Below, piece after piece: positions 3,414 to 9,544 of a DNA stretch of 10,300 nt (within the stretch, counting starts at the first letter, position 1; the number at the start of each line of letters is the position of its first letter). Both the position numbers and the translations under genes were made by a program. This stretch comes from Actinomycetes bacterium. Lineage in GTDB: Bacteria > Actinomycetota > Acidimicrobiia > Acidimicrobiales > Palsa-688. Under the pieces are notes generated by a model that worked only from the letters and a program-made list of their open reading frames with translations, was not told the origin of the DNA and did no database searches. Where the stretch lies: positions 1 through 10,300 of the forward strand of contig JAKAXG010000087.1 in the NCBI GenBank assembly GCA_021827225.1. Reading direction: 5' to 3'.

Positions 3414-4292
3414 ATGCGAATCGGAATCGTGCTACCCCAGACCGCCGGCGCCACGTGGGAGCGGGCGTCGCGCACCGCCGCCCACGCCGAGGAGGCCGGG
3501 TTCGACTCGGTGTGGGTGATCGACCACCTGAACGGCTTCCCCCCGGAGGGCGGGATCATGGAAGCCTGGACCATGCTGTCGGCGCTGGCCGCCACCACCT
3601 CGCGCATCGGCCTGGGCGCCCAGGTGTTCTGCCAGTCGTTCCGCAACCCGGCGTTGATGGCCAAGATGGCCACCACCCTGCAGCACATCAGCGGCGGCCG
3701 GCTGCAGTTCCTGATCGGGGCCGGCTGGTACCAGGAGGAGTACGAGGCCTTCGGTTACCCGTTCCCGGCCGCCGGGGTCCGGGTCGAGGAGCTGCGCGAC
3801 ACGGTCCGGATCTGCCGGGGGATGTGGGAGTCCGGCGGGGAACCTTTTTCCTACGAGGGCAGGCACTACTCGGTGAGGTCGGTCATGAACCGCCCGGCGC
3901 CCGAGCACCCCATCTCCATAGGGGTGGGCGGCAGGGGAGCGCGGGTGCTGGACCTGACCGCCGCCGAGGCCGACGAGTGGAACTGCCCGGCGGCGGCCCT
4001 GCCCCAGTACCCGCAGCTGAAGCGGACGCTCGAGGAGCGCCTCGAAGCGCACGGCCGTCAGGTCCGGCGCACCTTGCAACTGGTGTTCGCTCCCGGGGAG
4101 GAAGCCGTCCCCGCCGGCCTGGCCGGGTTCAATCCCGACCTGGGCCTGCGGGGCTCGACCGGCCAGATGGTGGACCGCCTCGGCCAGCTGGCCGAGGACG
4201 GCATAAGCGGGGTGTTCGGGATGGTGGCGAACCGGGCCGCCCTGGAAGCGGTCGCCGCCGTCCTGCCCGAGCTGCAGGCGGTCGGCGCCTAG
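3414..4292 (+). CDS. LLM-class (F420-dependent type) flavin oxidoreductase
   Basis: This 292-residue protein is a luciferase-like monooxygenase-fold TIM barrel. The start MRIGIVLPQT, followed by AEEAGFDSVWVIDHL (25-39), is typical of the F420-dependent branch abundant in Actinomycetota. Other class markers are SRIGLGAQV (63-71), RNPALMAKMATTLQHISGGR (77-96), IGAGWYQEEYEAFGYPF (101-117), the ERVxxLxE-like helix RVEELRDTVRI (123-133), and PISIGVGGRGARVLDLTAAEADEWN (166-190). Members move hydride between reduced F420 and small organic substrates, or oxidise alcohols. The substrate cannot be read from sequence, and FMN use cannot be excluded. The protein is somewhat shorter than members of about 330-350 residues but looks complete. 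Its stop interlocks with that of fabF through CTAG at 4289-4292. No functional link to the fab genes is evident. Confidence 0.88.
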   Translation: MRIGIVLPQTAGATWERASRTAAHAEEAGFDSVWVIDHLNGFPPEGGIMEAWTMLSALAATTSRIGLGAQVFCQSFRNPALMAKMATTLQHISGGRLQFLIGAGWYQEEYEAFGYPFPAAGVRVEELRDTVRICRGMWESGGEPFSYEGRHYSVRSVMNRPAPEHPISIGVGGRGARVLDLTAAEADEWNCPAAALPQYPQLKRTLEERLEAHGRQVRRTLQLVFAPGEEAVPAGLAGFNPDLGLRGSTGQMVDRLGQLAEDGISGVFGMVANRAALEAVAAVLPELQAVGA

Positions 4293-5506
4293 CCCTCCAC
4301 CGGGGCCATGACGATGCTGCCGTTGTGGCCGCCGAAGCCGAAGCTGTTCGACAGGGCCGGCCCGGGCTGCCACTCGCGGGGGGAGCCGCTCACCACGTCC
4401 AGCCTGATCTCCGGGTCCTGCTCGGTGAGGCCGACGGTGGGGGGGATCAACCCGTGGGTGATGGTGAGGGCCAGCGCCACCGCCTCCAGGGAGCCGGCGG
4501 CGCCGAGCGAGTGGCCGGTGATGCCCTTGATCGAGGTGACCGCCGGCCCCGGCGTGCCGAACACCTTGGTGATGGCCACGCTCTCGGCCAGGTCGTTGGC
4601 CGGGGTGGACGTCCCGTGGGCGTTGATGTGGGTGACCGCCTCGGCGCTGATGCCGGCGTCGAGGAGGGCCTGCTCCATGCAGGCGACGGCCCCGCCGCCG
4701 TCGGGGGGTGGGGCGGTGATGTGATGGGCGTCGGCGGTGCTGGCCGCCCCGAGGATCTCGGCGTAGATGTGCGCCCCCCGGGCCCGGGCCCGCTCCAGCT
4801 CCTCGAGCACCAGCACGGCGCCGCCCTCGGCTATCACGAAGCCGTCGCGTTTGGCGTCGAAGGGCATCGACACCCCGCTGGTGGACAGCGCCGTCATGTT
4901 GGCGAAGCCGGCCTCCCCGAGGGGGGTGATGGCCGCCTCGGACGAACCGGCGAACACCACGTCGCAGCGGGCGGAGGCCACCAGCCGGGCGCCGGCCCCG
5001 ACGCTCTGGGTCCCGGCCGCGCAGGCGGTGACGATGGCCTCGCACGGCCCCCGGAATCCGTAACGCATGGACACGTCGGCGGCGGCCCGGTTGCCCATCA
5101 TCATGGGGACCAGGAACGGGCTCACCCGCCGGGCGCCCCGGTCCCGCAGGACGGCGAGCTGGTCCTCGATGGTCTCGATCCCGCCGATCCCGGTGCCGAT
5201 GATCACCCCGCCCCGGTCGGGATCGACCGCCAGGGCCTCGATCCCGCCGGCGTCGTCGAGGGCTTCGGCGGCGGCCACCGCCGCGAACTGGGTGAAGCGG
5301 TCCACCCGGCGCAGCTCCTTGGGGCCGTACACCGAGGTGGCGTCGAAGCCGGAGACCCTGCGGGGGCCCTCGGGGGCGGGGCCGAGGAGCCCCTGCCAGA
5401 AGGCGTCGCGGCCGATGCCGCACGGTCCCACCACGCCCAGGCCGGTGACCGCCACCCGGCGGCCCGGGACGCCGGGGCGGCCGTCGGCGGGGAAGAGAGC
5501 CTGCAT
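4289..5506 (-). CDS. fabF: Beta-ketoacyl-ACP synthase II (FabF)
   Basis: This 405-residue condensing enzyme elongates acyl chains by decarboxylative Claisen condensation of acyl-enzyme with malonyl-ACP in the cytoplasm. RRVAVTGLGVVGPCG (16-30) opens the thiolase fold. The catalytic triad is complete: Cys162 in VTACAAGT, His297 in NAHGTSTP and His332 in GITGHSLGAAGS, with Lys327 nearby. NSFGFGGHN (387-395) is the C-terminal glycine-rich motif. The start was chosen at 5506 because its ATG shares one base with the acpP stop (TGATG), giving translational coupling and a normal length. The open frame extends further upstream, but only through acpP in another frame. About 15 extra residues precede the first strand. 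The residue three after the TACAAG segment is Gln where FabF enzymes often have His. It is the last gene of the fab cluster. Confidence 0.96.
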   Translation of the reverse strand: MQALFPADGRPGVPGRRVAVTGLGVVGPCGIGRDAFWQGLLGPAPEGPRRVSGFDATSVYGPKELRRVDRFTQFAAVAAAEALDDAGGIEALAVDPDRGGVIIGTGIGGIETIEDQLAVLRDRGARRVSPFLVPMMMGNRAAADVSMRYGFRGPCEAIVTACAAGTQSVGAGARLVASARCDVVFAGSSEAAITPLGEAGFANMTALSTSGVSMPFDAKRDGFVIAEGGAVLVLEELERARARGAHIYAEILGAASTADAHHITAPPPDGGGAVACMEQALLDAGISAEAVTHINAHGTSTPANDLAESVAITKVFGTPGPAVTSIKGITGHSLGAAGSLEAVALALTITHGLIPPTVGLTEQDPEIRLDVVSGSPREWQPGPALSNSFGFGGHNGSIVMAPVEG

Positions 5507-5745
5507 CAGAGCTTCGAGGTCACCAGAGTGAAGGCCTGGCCGACCGTCTCGACACCCTCGAGCTCCGACTCGTCGACGGTGATGTCGAACTGCTCCTCCA
5601 GGGCCATCACCAGTTCGACCAGGTCGAGGCTGTCGGCGTCGAGGTCGTCGGCGAAGCTGGCCTCGGGGGTGACCTTCTCCGGCTCGACCTGCAGTACCTC
5701 CACGGCGCACTGCTTGAACTTGTCGAAAGCCTCGTTGTTGTCCAC
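5506..5745 (-). CDS. acpP: Acyl carrier protein
   Basis: This 79-residue acidic four-helix protein carries growing acyl chains as thioesters on 4'-phosphopantetheine. The attachment site is Ser39 in DLDADSLDLVEL (34-45), the standard DSL motif. Length, acidity and the run LVMALEEQFDI (44-54) are typical. The start is GTG at 5745, preceded by GGAAGGA (5751-5757) with a five-base gap. An ATG 14 bases upstream is out of frame, so the GTG stands. The gene lies between fabH and fabF, which matches its role as shared substrate carrier. Its TGA stop overlaps the fabF ATG by one base. Confidence 0.97.
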   Translation of the reverse strand: MDNNEAFDKFKQCAVEVLQVEPEKVTPEASFADDLDADSLDLVELVMALEEQFDITVDESELEGVETVGQAFTLVTSKL

Positions 5746-5842: not shown

Positions 5843-6826
5843 TTACCGGCTCTGCCACCGCCAGACCGCCGATGCCCACGTCATTCCGGCGCCGAAGCCG
5901 GCCATCAGGATGTGGTCGCCCTCCCGCACCCGGCCGGCGTCGATGGCCTCGATGAGCGCCAGGGGGATCGACGCCGAGCTGGTGTTGCCGGTGTGGTCGA
6001 TGACCGAGGCGATGCGGTCGGCGGGCAGGCCCAGGCGGGAGGCGGCGGCCTCCATGATGCGGATGTTGGCCTGGTGGGGCACGAACAGGGCGATGTCGTC
6101 GATGCCCAGCTTGGCCCGTTCCAGCGAGGCCCTGGCCGACTCCACCGTCGCCAGGACCGCCCGCCGGAACACCTCCTTGCCGCGCATGACCATCCCCGAG
6201 CCGTGCTGGGCGTAGAGGAGGGGCACCAGGTTGCCGTCGACGCCGAGGTCCCAGCCGAGCAGCGAACCCTCGCCCGGTACCGCCTCCACCACCACCGCTC
6301 CGGCGCCGTCACCGAAGAGGAAGGCGTTGGTGCGGTCCTCCCAGTTGGTGGCCCGGGTGAGGGTCTCGGCTCCGATGAGCAGCACCCGCTCGGCCCCGGC
6401 CGAGATCAGCCCGCTGGCGGTCACCAGGCCGTAGGTGAAGCCGGCGCACGCCGCGTTCAGGTCCATGGCCCCGCCTCCCACGCCGAGGGCGGCGGCCACC
6501 GCCGCCGAGTTGGCGGGGATGAGCTGGTCGGGCGTGGTGGTGCACAGGACCACCACGCTGATGTCGCGCGCGTCGACCCCGGCCCGCTCGAGGGCCTTGC
6601 GTCCGGCCTCCGCGGCCAGGGTGCCGGTGGTGCCCAGCCCGTTCTCGGGCGGCTGCTCCGGAGGGGCCGGATCCACGAACGGCCCGGTGGCGGCCCGCCG
6701 GGTGCGGATGCCGCTGCGCTCGAAGATCCACTCGTCGGTGGTGTCGAACAGCGTGGTGATGTCCTCGTTGGTGACGACCCGCTCGGGCAGGGCGGTGCCC
6801 CAGCCGGTGATGGTGACGCCGGTCAT
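5843..6826 (-). CDS. fabH: Beta-ketoacyl-ACP synthase III (FabH)
   Basis: This 327-residue enzyme starts fatty acid synthesis by condensing an acyl-CoA primer with malonyl-ACP. The Cys-His-Asn triad is complete: Cys127 in LNAACAGFTYGL, His251 in FVPHQAN and Asn281 in HTGNTSSASIP. The N-terminal DEWIFERSGIRTRR (31-44) and the C-terminal GFGAGMTWASAVWRW (310-324) are standard. The start at 6826 was chosen because MTGVTITGWGTALPERVV matches the family N-terminus and its ATG overlaps the fabD stop by four bases (ATGA). The frame stays open far upstream through fabD, but that is a shadow. A Pro-rich segment (about 46-66) makes the loop after the first conserved block longer than usual. Primer preference, straight or branched, cannot be judged from sequence. 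Confidence 0.95.
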   Translation of the reverse strand: MTGVTITGWGTALPERVVTNEDITTLFDTTDEWIFERSGIRTRRAATGPFVDPAPPEQPPENGLGTTGTLAAEAGRKALERAGVDARDISVVVLCTTTPDQLIPANSAAVAAALGVGGGAMDLNAACAGFTYGLVTASGLISAGAERVLLIGAETLTRATNWEDRTNAFLFGDGAGAVVVEAVPGEGSLLGWDLGVDGNLVPLLYAQHGSGMVMRGKEVFRRAVLATVESARASLERAKLGIDDIALFVPHQANIRIMEAAASRLGLPADRIASVIDHTGNTSSASIPLALIEAIDAGRVREGDHILMAGFGAGMTWASAVWRWQSR

Positions 6827-8028
6827 GACGCGTGCAACCAGACGATCGGCTGGCCGGCCTGGACCCGCTCGCCCGGCTGCGCCAGGCTGCCCTTGAGGGT
6901 CCCGGCGAAGGGGGAGAGGACCTCGCGGCCCGAGACGGTGCCGAGCAGGGTGCCCACCTCGATGGCGTCGCCCGGACTGGGCCCGCCGCCCTGCACCGGT
7001 TCGAACACCCCGGCGGAGGGGCTTATGACCACCCGCTCGGAGACGTAGAGCAGCTCGCCCTGATGGCCGCTGGCGTAGGTGTGCAGGGCGCTGTTGCCCG
7101 ACACGGCGTCGACCAGGGTGTCGAGATCGGCGGGCGTGGACACCCTCACGGTGGTGGCGCTGGGCAGGATGCGCCGGATCATGGCCGACAGCGAGTCTCC
7201 GGGGCCCAACTCGACGAAGACGTGCTCGGCGTCGAGGTGACGGTCGGCGACGCCGGCCAGGCGCAGAACGGTCTGGTACCAGCGGATGGGGCTGCACAGC
7301 TGGGCGGACAGGAGCACCTTCCACTCGTCGCCGCTGGCGTGGAACCGGCCGTCCACGTTGGCCACCACCGGGGTGTCGGGGTCGTGGAAGGTGGTCGTCG
7401 CCAGCGCCTTGCGCAGCCGGTCCCGGGCGGGGGCCATGAAGGGGGTGTGGAAGGCGCCGCCCACCCGGATGGGGCTGACCCGGCGGGCGCCCATCGACTG
7501 GGCCAGGTCGGCGGCCCGCTCGACCGAAGCCGCCTCGCCGGCGATGACGGTCTCCTCCGGGCCGTTGAAGTTGGCGACCCACACCTCGCCGTCGGCCAGC
7601 CGGCAGGCGATGTCCACGGTGTCGGCGTCGCAGCCCGCCACGAGGGTCATCACCCCCGGGGCGGCGTCGGCCGCCGCCTGCATGGCCTCGCCCCGCTCGG
7701 CCACCACCCGGACGGACTCCTCGAAGCCGAGGATGCCGCTGGCGGCCAGGGCGCTGTACTCGCCGACGGAGTGGCCGGCCACCCGGGTCGGCTCGATGCC
7801 GAGCCGCTCCACCGCGTCGAGCACCAGGAGGCTGAAGGTGAACGTTGCGACCTGGGCGTTCCTGGTCTCGGTCAGCTCTTCGGGACCGGCGTCTGTCAGC
7901 AGGGCGGCGATGTCGCGCCCGGCCGCCTCCGACGCCTCCTCGACGATCTCCCAGGACGGGTGCTGCCTCCAGGGCGCCCCCATGCCGGGTCGTTGCGCTC
8001 CTTGACCGGGAAACACGAAGGCGGGCAA
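6823..8028 (-). CDS. fabD: Malonyl-CoA:ACP transacylase (FabD) with C-terminal biotinyl/lipoyl-like domain
   Basis: Residues 1-305 of this 401-residue protein form a malonyl-CoA:ACP transacylase, which loads malonate onto acyl carrier protein. Visible are FVFPGQGAQRPGM (4-16), the nucleophile elbow GHSVGEYSAL (Ser87), Arg112 in VAERGEAM, catalytic His194 in GAFHTPFM, and VELGPGDSLSAMI (272-284). FabD is normally about 300-320 residues. Here about 90 more follow, and residues 333-398 resemble a biotinyl/lipoyl carrier domain: VISPSAGVFEP, then GDAIEVGTLLGTV, then SPFAGTLKG and GERVQAGQPIVWL. Where biotin carriers have EAMKM, this protein has VSGREV, so the modifiable lysine appears absent. The start is TTG at 8028, supported by AGGAGGT nine bases upstream and by the family N-terminus. 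The gene heads the fabD-fabH-acpP-fabF cluster, which suggests the extra domain acts in fatty acid synthesis. Confidence 0.93.
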   Translation of the reverse strand: MPAFVFPGQGAQRPGMGAPWRQHPSWEIVEEASEAAGRDIAALLTDAGPEELTETRNAQVATFTFSLLVLDAVERLGIEPTRVAGHSVGEYSALAASGILGFEESVRVVAERGEAMQAAADAAPGVMTLVAGCDADTVDIACRLADGEVWVANFNGPEETVIAGEAASVERAADLAQSMGARRVSPIRVGGAFHTPFMAPARDRLRKALATTTFHDPDTPVVANVDGRFHASGDEWKVLLSAQLCSPIRWYQTVLRLAGVADRHLDAEHVFVELGPGDSLSAMIRRILPSATTVRVSTPADLDTLVDAVSGNSALHTYASGHQGELLYVSERVVISPSAGVFEPVQGGGPSPGDAIEVGTLLGTVSGREVLSPFAGTLKGSLAQPGERVQAGQPIVWLHAS

Positions 8029-8037
8029 AGCGGCGGG

Positions 8038-8044
8038 ACCTCCT
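8038..8044 (-). promoter_or_regulatory. Strong Shine-Dalgarno deciding the TTG start of fabD
   Basis: AGGAGGT on the minus strand lies nine bases before the TTG at 8028. It is the strongest ribosome binding site seen in the window and supports the unusual start codon over the ATG at codon 16, which would remove the conserved PGQG motif. Confidence 0.75.
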
Positions 8045-8185: not shown

Positions 8186-9544
8186 TTAGGTGTCGGGCGG
8201 GAGCGGGTCGGCCTCCTGCTCCTGCTCCAGCATCAGCCTGCGGGCGGTCGACGAATCGTCGAAGCGGAGCAGCTTCACCAGGTGCACCACCGTGCCCCTC
8301 TCCGGTCGGGACTCGAAGCGGACCTGGTCCACCAGGGCGTGCATGAGCGCCATCCCCCGGCCGTGCTCGGCGTCGGTGTCGGCCATGGTGGGGCCGCTCA
8401 AGGCGTCGTGGTCGAACCCCCGCCCCACGTCCACCACCCGGATGTGGCAGCCGGTGGCGGCGATGCCGACCGCCACGTCGTAGGCGTCACCGGGTCCGGA
8501 ATGGTCGATCACGTTGGCGCACGCCTCGGTGACGGCCAGCTCCACGGCGTCGGCGTCGTCGGGGATCACCCCCACCTCCCTCATGGCCGCCCGGATCAGG
8601 TGGCGGGTGACCGGGACGCTCAGCCGGTCGCGGGGCAGCTGCAGCGACAGCGTCACCTGAAAGCCCTTCCCGGTCGACGCCGCCGCCGGCTGGTCGGGGC
8701 GGCGGGGCCAGTGGTAGCGGTGGGTCACGTCTCGGTCCCTGGACCGGGTCAGGTCGACGACGATCCGGCATTCGTGGTCACCCGCCGCCAGGGACTCCAC
8801 CACGTTCACGTCTGCCTCCCCGGCGGCCCGGGCGGCCAGCCCGCCGGCCAGCGCCGAGGTGAAGCGGCACAGGGCCGGGGCGGCGGCCGGCCCGAACGGG
8901 CACCGCCGGTTGCGGATCACGGCCCGGTCGGCCTGCGCGGTCACGACCTCGAAGTCCCCTCCCAGCCGGTCCTCCACCTCGACCAGCAGGTCGGCGAGCG
9001 ATCGGGCATCGGACTGCAGATCGGCCCGGTGCGCCTCCCGGGCGGCCACGGTGGCTCCCGCCCGGGCCGCCGCCTCCTCCAGGCTGCGGCCGCCGGCGAC
9101 GTCGGCGCCGATCAGGCCGACCAGGTGGCCGAGGCGGCCGTCGGGGACCAGGCCGGGATCTGCCGGTTCCAGGTCGATGTCGCGCTCGGGGGGGCGGGCC
9201 ACGCTCAACGACAGCGCCACCGCCTCGGTCCCGCCGTGCTCGGCGACCAGCCGGGCGGCCTGGTCATGGGCCCTGGTGACGCCCGCTCCCACCGGTGTCC
9301 CCGGCAGGGGGCCGTCGGGGAGGCGGCGGGAGCGCAGATGGCCGCGCCGGCCCTCCCAGTCGAGCGACACCCAGACCGGGCCGTCCGGTCCGCTCTCGAG
9401 CGTCTGGCGGACGAGCGGGCGGGCCAGCTCCACGACCGCCGGTTCGACGGCGTGGCGGGACAGATGGGTGCAGATCTCGTCCTCCAGCAGTGAAGACGAT
9501 CCGGGGACTCGGGAGTCGACGCACCATTCCACGGCAGGGTTCAT
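8186..9544 (-). CDS. Three-cysteine sensor-like domain fused to RsbW-type ATPase domain
   Basis: This is a 452-residue cytoplasmic regulator. The C-terminal part (about 297-425) is a GHKL/HATPase domain of the RsbW/anti-sigma type: N-box ELAVTEACANVIDHS (336-349, E340 and N344), G1 box VVDVGRGFD (370-378), G2 box HGRGMAL (394-400) and RGTVVHL (416-422). Such domains are serine kinases or anti-sigma factors acting in partner-switching. The middle part (about 180-265) resembles the ligand or metal-sensing half of SufR/DeoR-like actinobacterial regulators: ADLLVEVEDRLGGDFEV, then RRCPFG (C215), ALCRF (C226) and GDHECRIVVDL (C259). No DNA-binding helix-turn-helix was recognised at the N-terminus. 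No sigma factor or anti-anti-sigma gene is in the window. The ATG at 9544 lacks a clear Shine-Dalgarno, and a GTG at codon 5 is an alternative. The ATPase call is firm, the sensor call moderate. Confidence 0.82.
   Translation of the reverse strand: MNPAVEWCVDSRVPGSSSLLEDEICTHLSRHAVEPAVVELARPLVRQTLESGPDGPVWVSLDWEGRRGHLRSRRLPDGPLPGTPVGAGVTRAHDQAARLVAEHGGTEAVALSLSVARPPERDIDLEPADPGLVPDGRLGHLVGLIGADVAGGRSLEEAAARAGATVAAREAHRADLQSDARSLADLLVEVEDRLGGDFEVVTAQADRAVIRNRRCPFGPAAAPALCRFTSALAGGLAARAAGEADVNVVESLAAGDHECRIVVDLTRSRDRDVTHRYHWPRRPDQPAAASTGKGFQVTLSLQLPRDRLSVPVTRHLIRAAMREVGVIPDDADAVELAVTEACANVIDHSGPGDAYDVAVGIAATGCHIRVVDVGRGFDHDALSGPTMADTDAEHGRGMALMHALVDQVRFESRPERGTVVHLVKLLRFDDSSTARRLMLEQEQEADPLPPDT

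Follow-up and report, generated by a model that had tools for sequence, protein, structure and literature searches.

A lysine-less biotinyl/lipoyl-like domain fused to or encoded beside the malonyl-CoA:ACP transacylase FabD

Introduction

The gene fabD-BSH is located on the minus strand (6823..8028) of the window, a stretch of 10,300 nucleotides from contig JAKAXG010000087.1, and encodes a protein of 401 amino acids in which a malonyl-CoA:ACP transacylase (FabD) is followed by a biotinyl/lipoyl-like domain (barrel-sandwich hybrid, BSH) that lacks the modification lysine. An earlier note on this DNA had proposed such a fusion from the letters alone; it is confirmed here by AF2, Foldseek and VIA-align, with the biotin carboxyl carrier protein (BCCP) as the closest fold. 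One clade has the domain as a fusion with FabD; in many other organisms it is encoded between fabD and fabH, and it is often clustered with a carboxyltransferase gene. This arrangement is a real and conserved use of a known fold; the evidence for the fold, for the missing lysine and for the gene linkage is solid, and a partner and a role are proposed below. Overall, the interpretation given in the earlier note is partly supported.

No description of a lysine-less, FabD-linked domain family was found in the literature searched. To our knowledge, it is an open question whether, in bacteria, the enzymes of type II fatty-acid synthesis form an organized assembly with acetyl-CoA carboxylase or work as free enzymes; a conserved BCCP relative that is not a carrier and is fused or linked to FabD provides a set of proteins for this question.

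Gene cluster and transacylase

The minus strand of the window carries a type II fatty-acid cluster with the genes fabD-BSH, fabH, acyl carrier protein (ACP) and fabF. The TTG start of fabD-BSH is preceded by a ribosome-binding site AGGAGG, read in the sequence at 8039..8044 (minus strand), and the product matches Acyl_transf_1 (E 7.6e-33) and TIGR00128 (E 2.8e-70). The ATG of fabH (KAS III; 5843..6826, minus strand; ACP_syn_III_C, E 4e-36) overlaps the fabD-BSH stop codon as ATGA, a junction that was read in the sequence. It is followed on the same strand by the open reading frame of the 79-residue ACP (5506..5745; PP-binding, E 6.6e-14) and by fabF (KAS II; 4289..5506), whose start is taken to be the ATG overlapping the ACP stop codon and whose match to ketoacyl-synt (E 3.6e-40) was obtained with the longer reading 4289-5575. 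Just upstream of the cluster, 8186-9544 (minus strand) encodes a 452-residue protein that has a HATPase_c_2 domain at its C-terminus and also matches MetOD1, possibly an anti-sigma or sensory protein. At the other end a luciferase-like monooxygenase (3414-4292, plus strand) converges with fabF, the stop codons overlapping.

Residues 1-311 of fabD-BSH (7096..8028, minus strand) are an ordinary FabD. The FabD fold is kept, the gene shares its cluster with those of FabH, ACP and FabF, and residues S87, R112, H194 and Q243, which we take to be the catalytic Ser, Arg, His and Gln of FabD, are invariant in 48 aligned sequences. The TIGR00128 (fabD) score of 237.1 bits is below the equivalog cut-off of 260.9. 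Likeness to classical FabD is confined to these 311 residues: the solved bacterial FabDs that top the fold comparison are 293-320 residues long, end where the linker of fabD-BSH starts, and have no tail domain. Because the fused protein is the sole TIGR00128 match among the contigs of genome G005, it is probably the housekeeping enzyme there. Five other genomes with a fused FabD (G001, G002, G003, G004 and G006) each have one or more additional FabD-family matches at other places.

Fold and conservation of the tail domain

The transacylase is connected by a linker (residues 312-324; 7057..7095, minus strand; model pLDDT below 50 for residues 314-329) to the lysine-less BSH domain (residues 325-401; 6826..7056, minus strand), which is supported by AF2, Foldseek, VIA-align and the family profile. 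A fold search with the full-length model returned FabDs and acyltransferases, none of them informative for the tail; because they filled the list, residues 322-401 were folded alone and gave an AF2 model with a pLDDT of 94. Its top matches are BCCP in both Foldseek and VIA-align, with lipoyl domains ranking below BCCP and efflux adaptors of the HlyD/AcrA type scoring somewhat lower. The Pfam score of the window tail is below threshold. The family profile matches E. coli BCCP with E 9e-9, and its best row is a lipoyl protein of the E2p type (9.3e-11), which another search had matched in three stretches; the best efflux adaptor reaches 0.0012. The tail belongs to the biotinyl/lipoyl family, has the barrel-sandwich fold of a biotin carrier, and is most similar to BCCP in fold. 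It would descend from BCCP and not from a lipoyl domain, a descent that is not proven, because the sequence profile puts the E2p lipoyl protein above BCCP. A chance resemblance to the biotinyl fold is incompatible with what the profile, the fold and the conservation show.

At the place of the EAMKM hairpin of biotin carriers the window reads VSGREV (residues 365-370; 6919..6936, minus strand), a tip hairpin that is shortened according to alignment and segment length. No lysine occurs within residues 362-374 in any of the 121 sequences of the fused set, i.e. the window and the best 120 of 325 homologue matches, so that the absence of the modification lysine, claimed from the window sequence, holds throughout the fused clade as sampled. 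Neither the biotinylated lysine of an (A/S)MKM-like hairpin nor, in the same alignment, the DKA lysine at the hairpin tip of lipoyl domains is present.

In conservation the tail matches the catalytic core, and the two appear to be under similar selection, judging from the same 121 sequences: identity over all pairs is 72 percent for the tail vs 74 percent for the core, and mean identity to the window sequence 75 vs 76 percent. In an alignment of 37 family members of our choice, the conserved residues are R332 (37/37), E331 (35/37), E325 (35/36) and W397 (34/37), together with P337 (36), G340 (37), F342 (34), S372 (34), F374 (35), G376 (36) and G386 (36). The loop around residues 345-355 and the hairpin tip, which can be deleted, are variable. 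Since the first and last strands of biotinyl domains lie at the end opposite the biotin hairpin, E331/R332 and W397 point to a putative binding face away from the carrier tip. Mimicry of the biotin carrier had been suggested earlier; for the biotin arm itself it is unlikely, because the tip differs among family members and is reduced in length in the main fused clade.

Most fused loci (52 of 58) have a hairpin segment of 18 residues, and four (L084, L089, L096, L112) have one of 22; among 50 stand-alone loci the segment has 22 or 23 residues in 32 and 27 in one, the length pattern being unmatched in the remaining two fused and 17 stand-alone loci. L002 and L019, where the contig ends inside the domain, are counted as fused for hairpin length and belong to neither class in the neighbor counts.

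Distribution and gene neighborhood

The earlier note had placed the domain on FabD. The fused form exists, and the same domain is also encoded by a separate gene of about 90 codons, mostly between fabD and fabH. Such short reading frames were found by searching the class Acidimicrobiia and the phylum Actinomycetota, to which Acidiferrimicrobium sp. IK (G001, locus L007), a relative with the fused form, belongs. With the family profile at E <= 1e-12 the domain is found once in each of 115 genomes among the 296 searched in the class. In the draw from the phylum it was counted by us in 63 of 396 genomes, weaker matches including ordinary biotinyl/lipoyl domains. A protein search with 13 stand-alone domains gave 1248 matches at E <= 0.001; the organisms named among the best 120 are Acidimicrobiales, Acidimicrobiia or Actinomycetes/Actinomycetia. 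A second stand-alone group gave 265 matches, the best 120 of which are from Actinomycetota or Actinobacteria where named, and one from a soil metagenome. Many of the best 120 of the 1248 carry the name biotin carboxyl carrier protein or biotin/lipoyl-containing protein. For members of about 90 residues whose aligned hairpins lack MKM, the former name would be misleading as evidence for a biotin carrier, and it could also mislead pathway reconstruction.

That the fusion tracks a clade, as had been asked earlier, is borne out by the domain tree, in which most fused forms group together. The fused loci L084, L089, L096 and L112 stand apart from this main group. The smallest number of changes between fused and separate forms is three on the domain tree (106 rows, with few columns and many open forks) and four on the FabD tree (77 rows, 40 fused and 37 separate, after thinning of near-duplicates, including L089, and omission of rows with a short or no FabD segment). 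Several independent fusions of FabD with the domain are suggested; a single clade of all fused FabDs is not rejected (p-AU 0.073). L084, L089, L096, L110 and L112, fusions from the phylum and class draws, are unlike the main fused clade and may stem from separate fusions; L110 is very divergent.

Gene neighbors were compared in 56 fused and 50 stand-alone loci, of which those from L058 on were mostly picked by us from match lists and some are nearly identical (e.g. L009 and L010), so that the fractions are not an unbiased census. Loci L022-L026, L028, L030 and L033 (an unrelated match, FabD-only loci and duplicates) and all from L116 on were set aside before counting. Measured by the ends of the reading frames, fabD lies within 200 nt upstream on the same strand in 41 of the 50 stand-alone loci. 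All nine others (L059, L060, L090, L092, L098-L102) have an acyl-CoA carboxylase carboxyltransferase gene within the part read, which was confirmed with PF01039 for L090 and L060 and recognized elsewhere by similarity to the L090 protein. In L092 the contig ends 340 nt upstream of the domain gene.

The usual order in stand-alone loci is fabD - domain - fabH - fabF - carboxyltransferase; in L075, the one locus checked for this, fabG-like and ACP genes sit between fabH and fabF. Where at least 4.5 kb are available downstream, a carboxyltransferase gene was found in 26 of 40 stand-alone loci and not found in the other 14; it was found near none of the 22 fused loci with 4.5 kb downstream. The link to acetyl-CoA carboxylase put forward earlier gains indirect support from many stand-alone loci and none from the fused ones. 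Because the carboxyltransferase is missing from 14/40 stand-alone and 22/22 fused loci, the carboxylase link is not universal, and it is unseen in the clade of the window itself. In mycobacteria, fabD, KAS and accD genes lie in one cluster; proximity within such a cluster could mean no more than a shared pathway.

Proposed role

We tentatively suggest, at somewhat less than an even chance, that the tail gave up its prosthetic group and became a docking or assembly module tying FabD to acyl-CoA carboxylase, a reading suggested by the conserved face together with the gene neighbors. The domain, whether stand-alone or at the C-terminus of FabD, would bind both FabD and the carboxylase, the latter most likely via its carboxyltransferase or its biotin-carboxylase/carrier subunit. 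The enzyme that makes malonyl-CoA would in this way be held near the one that loads malonyl onto ACP, or assembly of the carboxylase would be aided. That such contacts exist, that malonyl-CoA is the product of the carboxyltransferase and that the flow of malonyl is affected is what we infer.

Somewhat unlikely, in our estimate, is that the domain serves only FabD, as an accessory for stability, binding of ACP or FabH, or regulation, and does not interact with the carboxylase. FabD is indeed its most constant neighbor (the 56 fused loci and 41 of the 50 stand-alone loci), fabH of the window overlaps the codons of fabD-BSH, and the 22 fused loci have no carboxyltransferase nearby. This reading is opposed by L060 and L090, in which the carboxyltransferase gene directly follows the domain gene (L060:4364-6101, L090:7112-8956) and no match to fabD, fabH or fabF was found in the 12 kb read for L060 or the 10.5 kb read for L090, the L090 stretch ending 3 kb downstream. 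The domain in these two loci is possibly an accessory subunit of the carboxylase outside a fatty-acid cluster. Also against a purely FabD-bound role, L059, L098, L099, L100 and L102 contain fabH, fabF and carboxyltransferase genes and a fabD match on neither strand; L101 shows the same set of genes, with a fabD-like reading frame beside the domain gene on the opposite strand. The domain sequences of L098-L102 are divergent (50-54 bits).

The docking module might take a more specific form, which we consider unlikely: a coupling subunit dedicated to bacterial type II fatty-acid synthesis, with the fold of a carrier and no prosthetic group, that would join the carboxylase to FabD and let malonyl be handed on inside the complex, as a bacterial counterpart of the plant BADC proteins. 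In the clade of the window this bridge would have become part of FabD.

Comparison with known systems

Plant BADC proteins are plastid relatives of BCCP without the biotinylation motif, which share 25-30 percent identity with plant BCCP, coexist with true BCCP and interact with BCCP and biotin carboxylase, according to the sections at hand of PMC11926652. The same sections report BADC as an inhibitor of the carboxylase and, from other studies, as a glue for acetyl-CoA carboxylase assembly, and they do not mention a fusion with FabD. By description, not by sequence, the present domain is like BADC in being similar to BCCP and devoid of the biotinylation motif, which makes BADC, by analogy, the nearest functional parallel.

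Following this parallel, the domain might be a regulator which, by competition with the genuine BCCP for binding to the carboxylase, reduces the supply of malonyl-CoA as a feedback from the fatty-acid cluster. We regard this as improbable. The BCCP-like fold, the lost lysine and the carboxyltransferase linkage would suit such a competitor, and inhibition in vivo is proposed for BADC in the sections at hand of PMC11926652; however, the hairpin end, which a carrier inserts into active sites, is variable in the family and shortened in the main fused clade, and the same sections argue that the structural results of that study do not fit a role of BADC as an inhibitor.

The epsilon subunit of actinobacterial carboxylases (AccE/PccE) is a small subunit encoded beside the carboxyltransferase that affects assembly and activity, according to the portion at hand of PMC13118682. 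The present domain resembles it in size and gene position. It belongs to a different family, since PF13822, the epsilon family, is absent from the five families matched by 37 domain sequences at E up to 0.01. By our count epsilon is over the cut-off in 6 of 63 genomes with the domain (E <= 1e-12) vs 44 of 333 without it; this difference is too weak, and too confounded by kinship, to serve as a sign of mutual exclusion of the two.

From BCCP itself (AccB, or the BCCP domain of acyl-CoA carboxylase alpha subunits) the domain differs in the missing MKM lysine, in the shortened hairpin of the main fused clade and in being fused to or encoded beside FabD. The E2 lipoyl domains of 2-oxo acid dehydrogenases share its fold and carry the DKA lysine, which it lacks. 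HlyD/AcrA-type efflux adaptors also contain unmodified barrel-sandwich domains, but these are periplasmic and combined with other domains.

A search of 14 genomes with PF00364 gave other biotinyl/lipoyl domains over the cut-off in every one. Among the 30 loci obtained, EAMKM was read in eight genomes (G001, G005, G015, G089, G098, G144, G168 and G301) and lipoyl-type motifs only in the remaining six. The domain as a substitute for a missing BCCP is ruled out by the EAMKM domains in these eight of the 14 genomes.

Hairpin lysines in stand-alone homologues

A conserved lysine at the hairpin tip of homologues, which the earlier note had named as speaking against its view, is present in one stand-alone group and neither in the fused clade nor across the whole family. 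A lysine falls within the hairpin region in 76 of the 120 stand-alone homologues listed; 72 share a single position for it, mostly within EGKGHSTPV, where our alignment places it one residue before the canonical place. Among the listed 120 of the second stand-alone group the count is 37, at scattered positions. Within the compared loci that match the hairpin pattern, a hairpin lysine occurs in six, all stand-alone.

The EGKGHSTPV lysine might bear a group, and the domain as a whole might be a present or former modified carrier, in which the GKG lysine or another residue is modified and the fused clade has lost it secondarily. The lysine counts of the two stand-alone groups speak for this reading, which we nevertheless consider very improbable: no MKM or DKA motif was found in the hairpins read of stand-alone homologues, other homologues have P, R, S, V or G at the position of the EGKGHSTPV lysine, the place of the lysine is not conserved across the family and its flanks do not resemble a biotin or lipoyl attachment site, the tip varies among the 37 aligned family members, and the 121 fused-clade sequences have no lysine there. 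Hardly credible, finally, is a drifting relic, i.e. a leftover carrier-like gene fused by chance, for which the lack of a known function and the low Pfam score of the window tail might speak, against a tail conserved like the catalytic core, conserved residues specific to the family and a single copy per genome in the 115 genomes of the class. The recurrent EGKGHSTPV hairpin, with its lysine beside the canonical place, characterizes a large stand-alone group (P0126-P0237).
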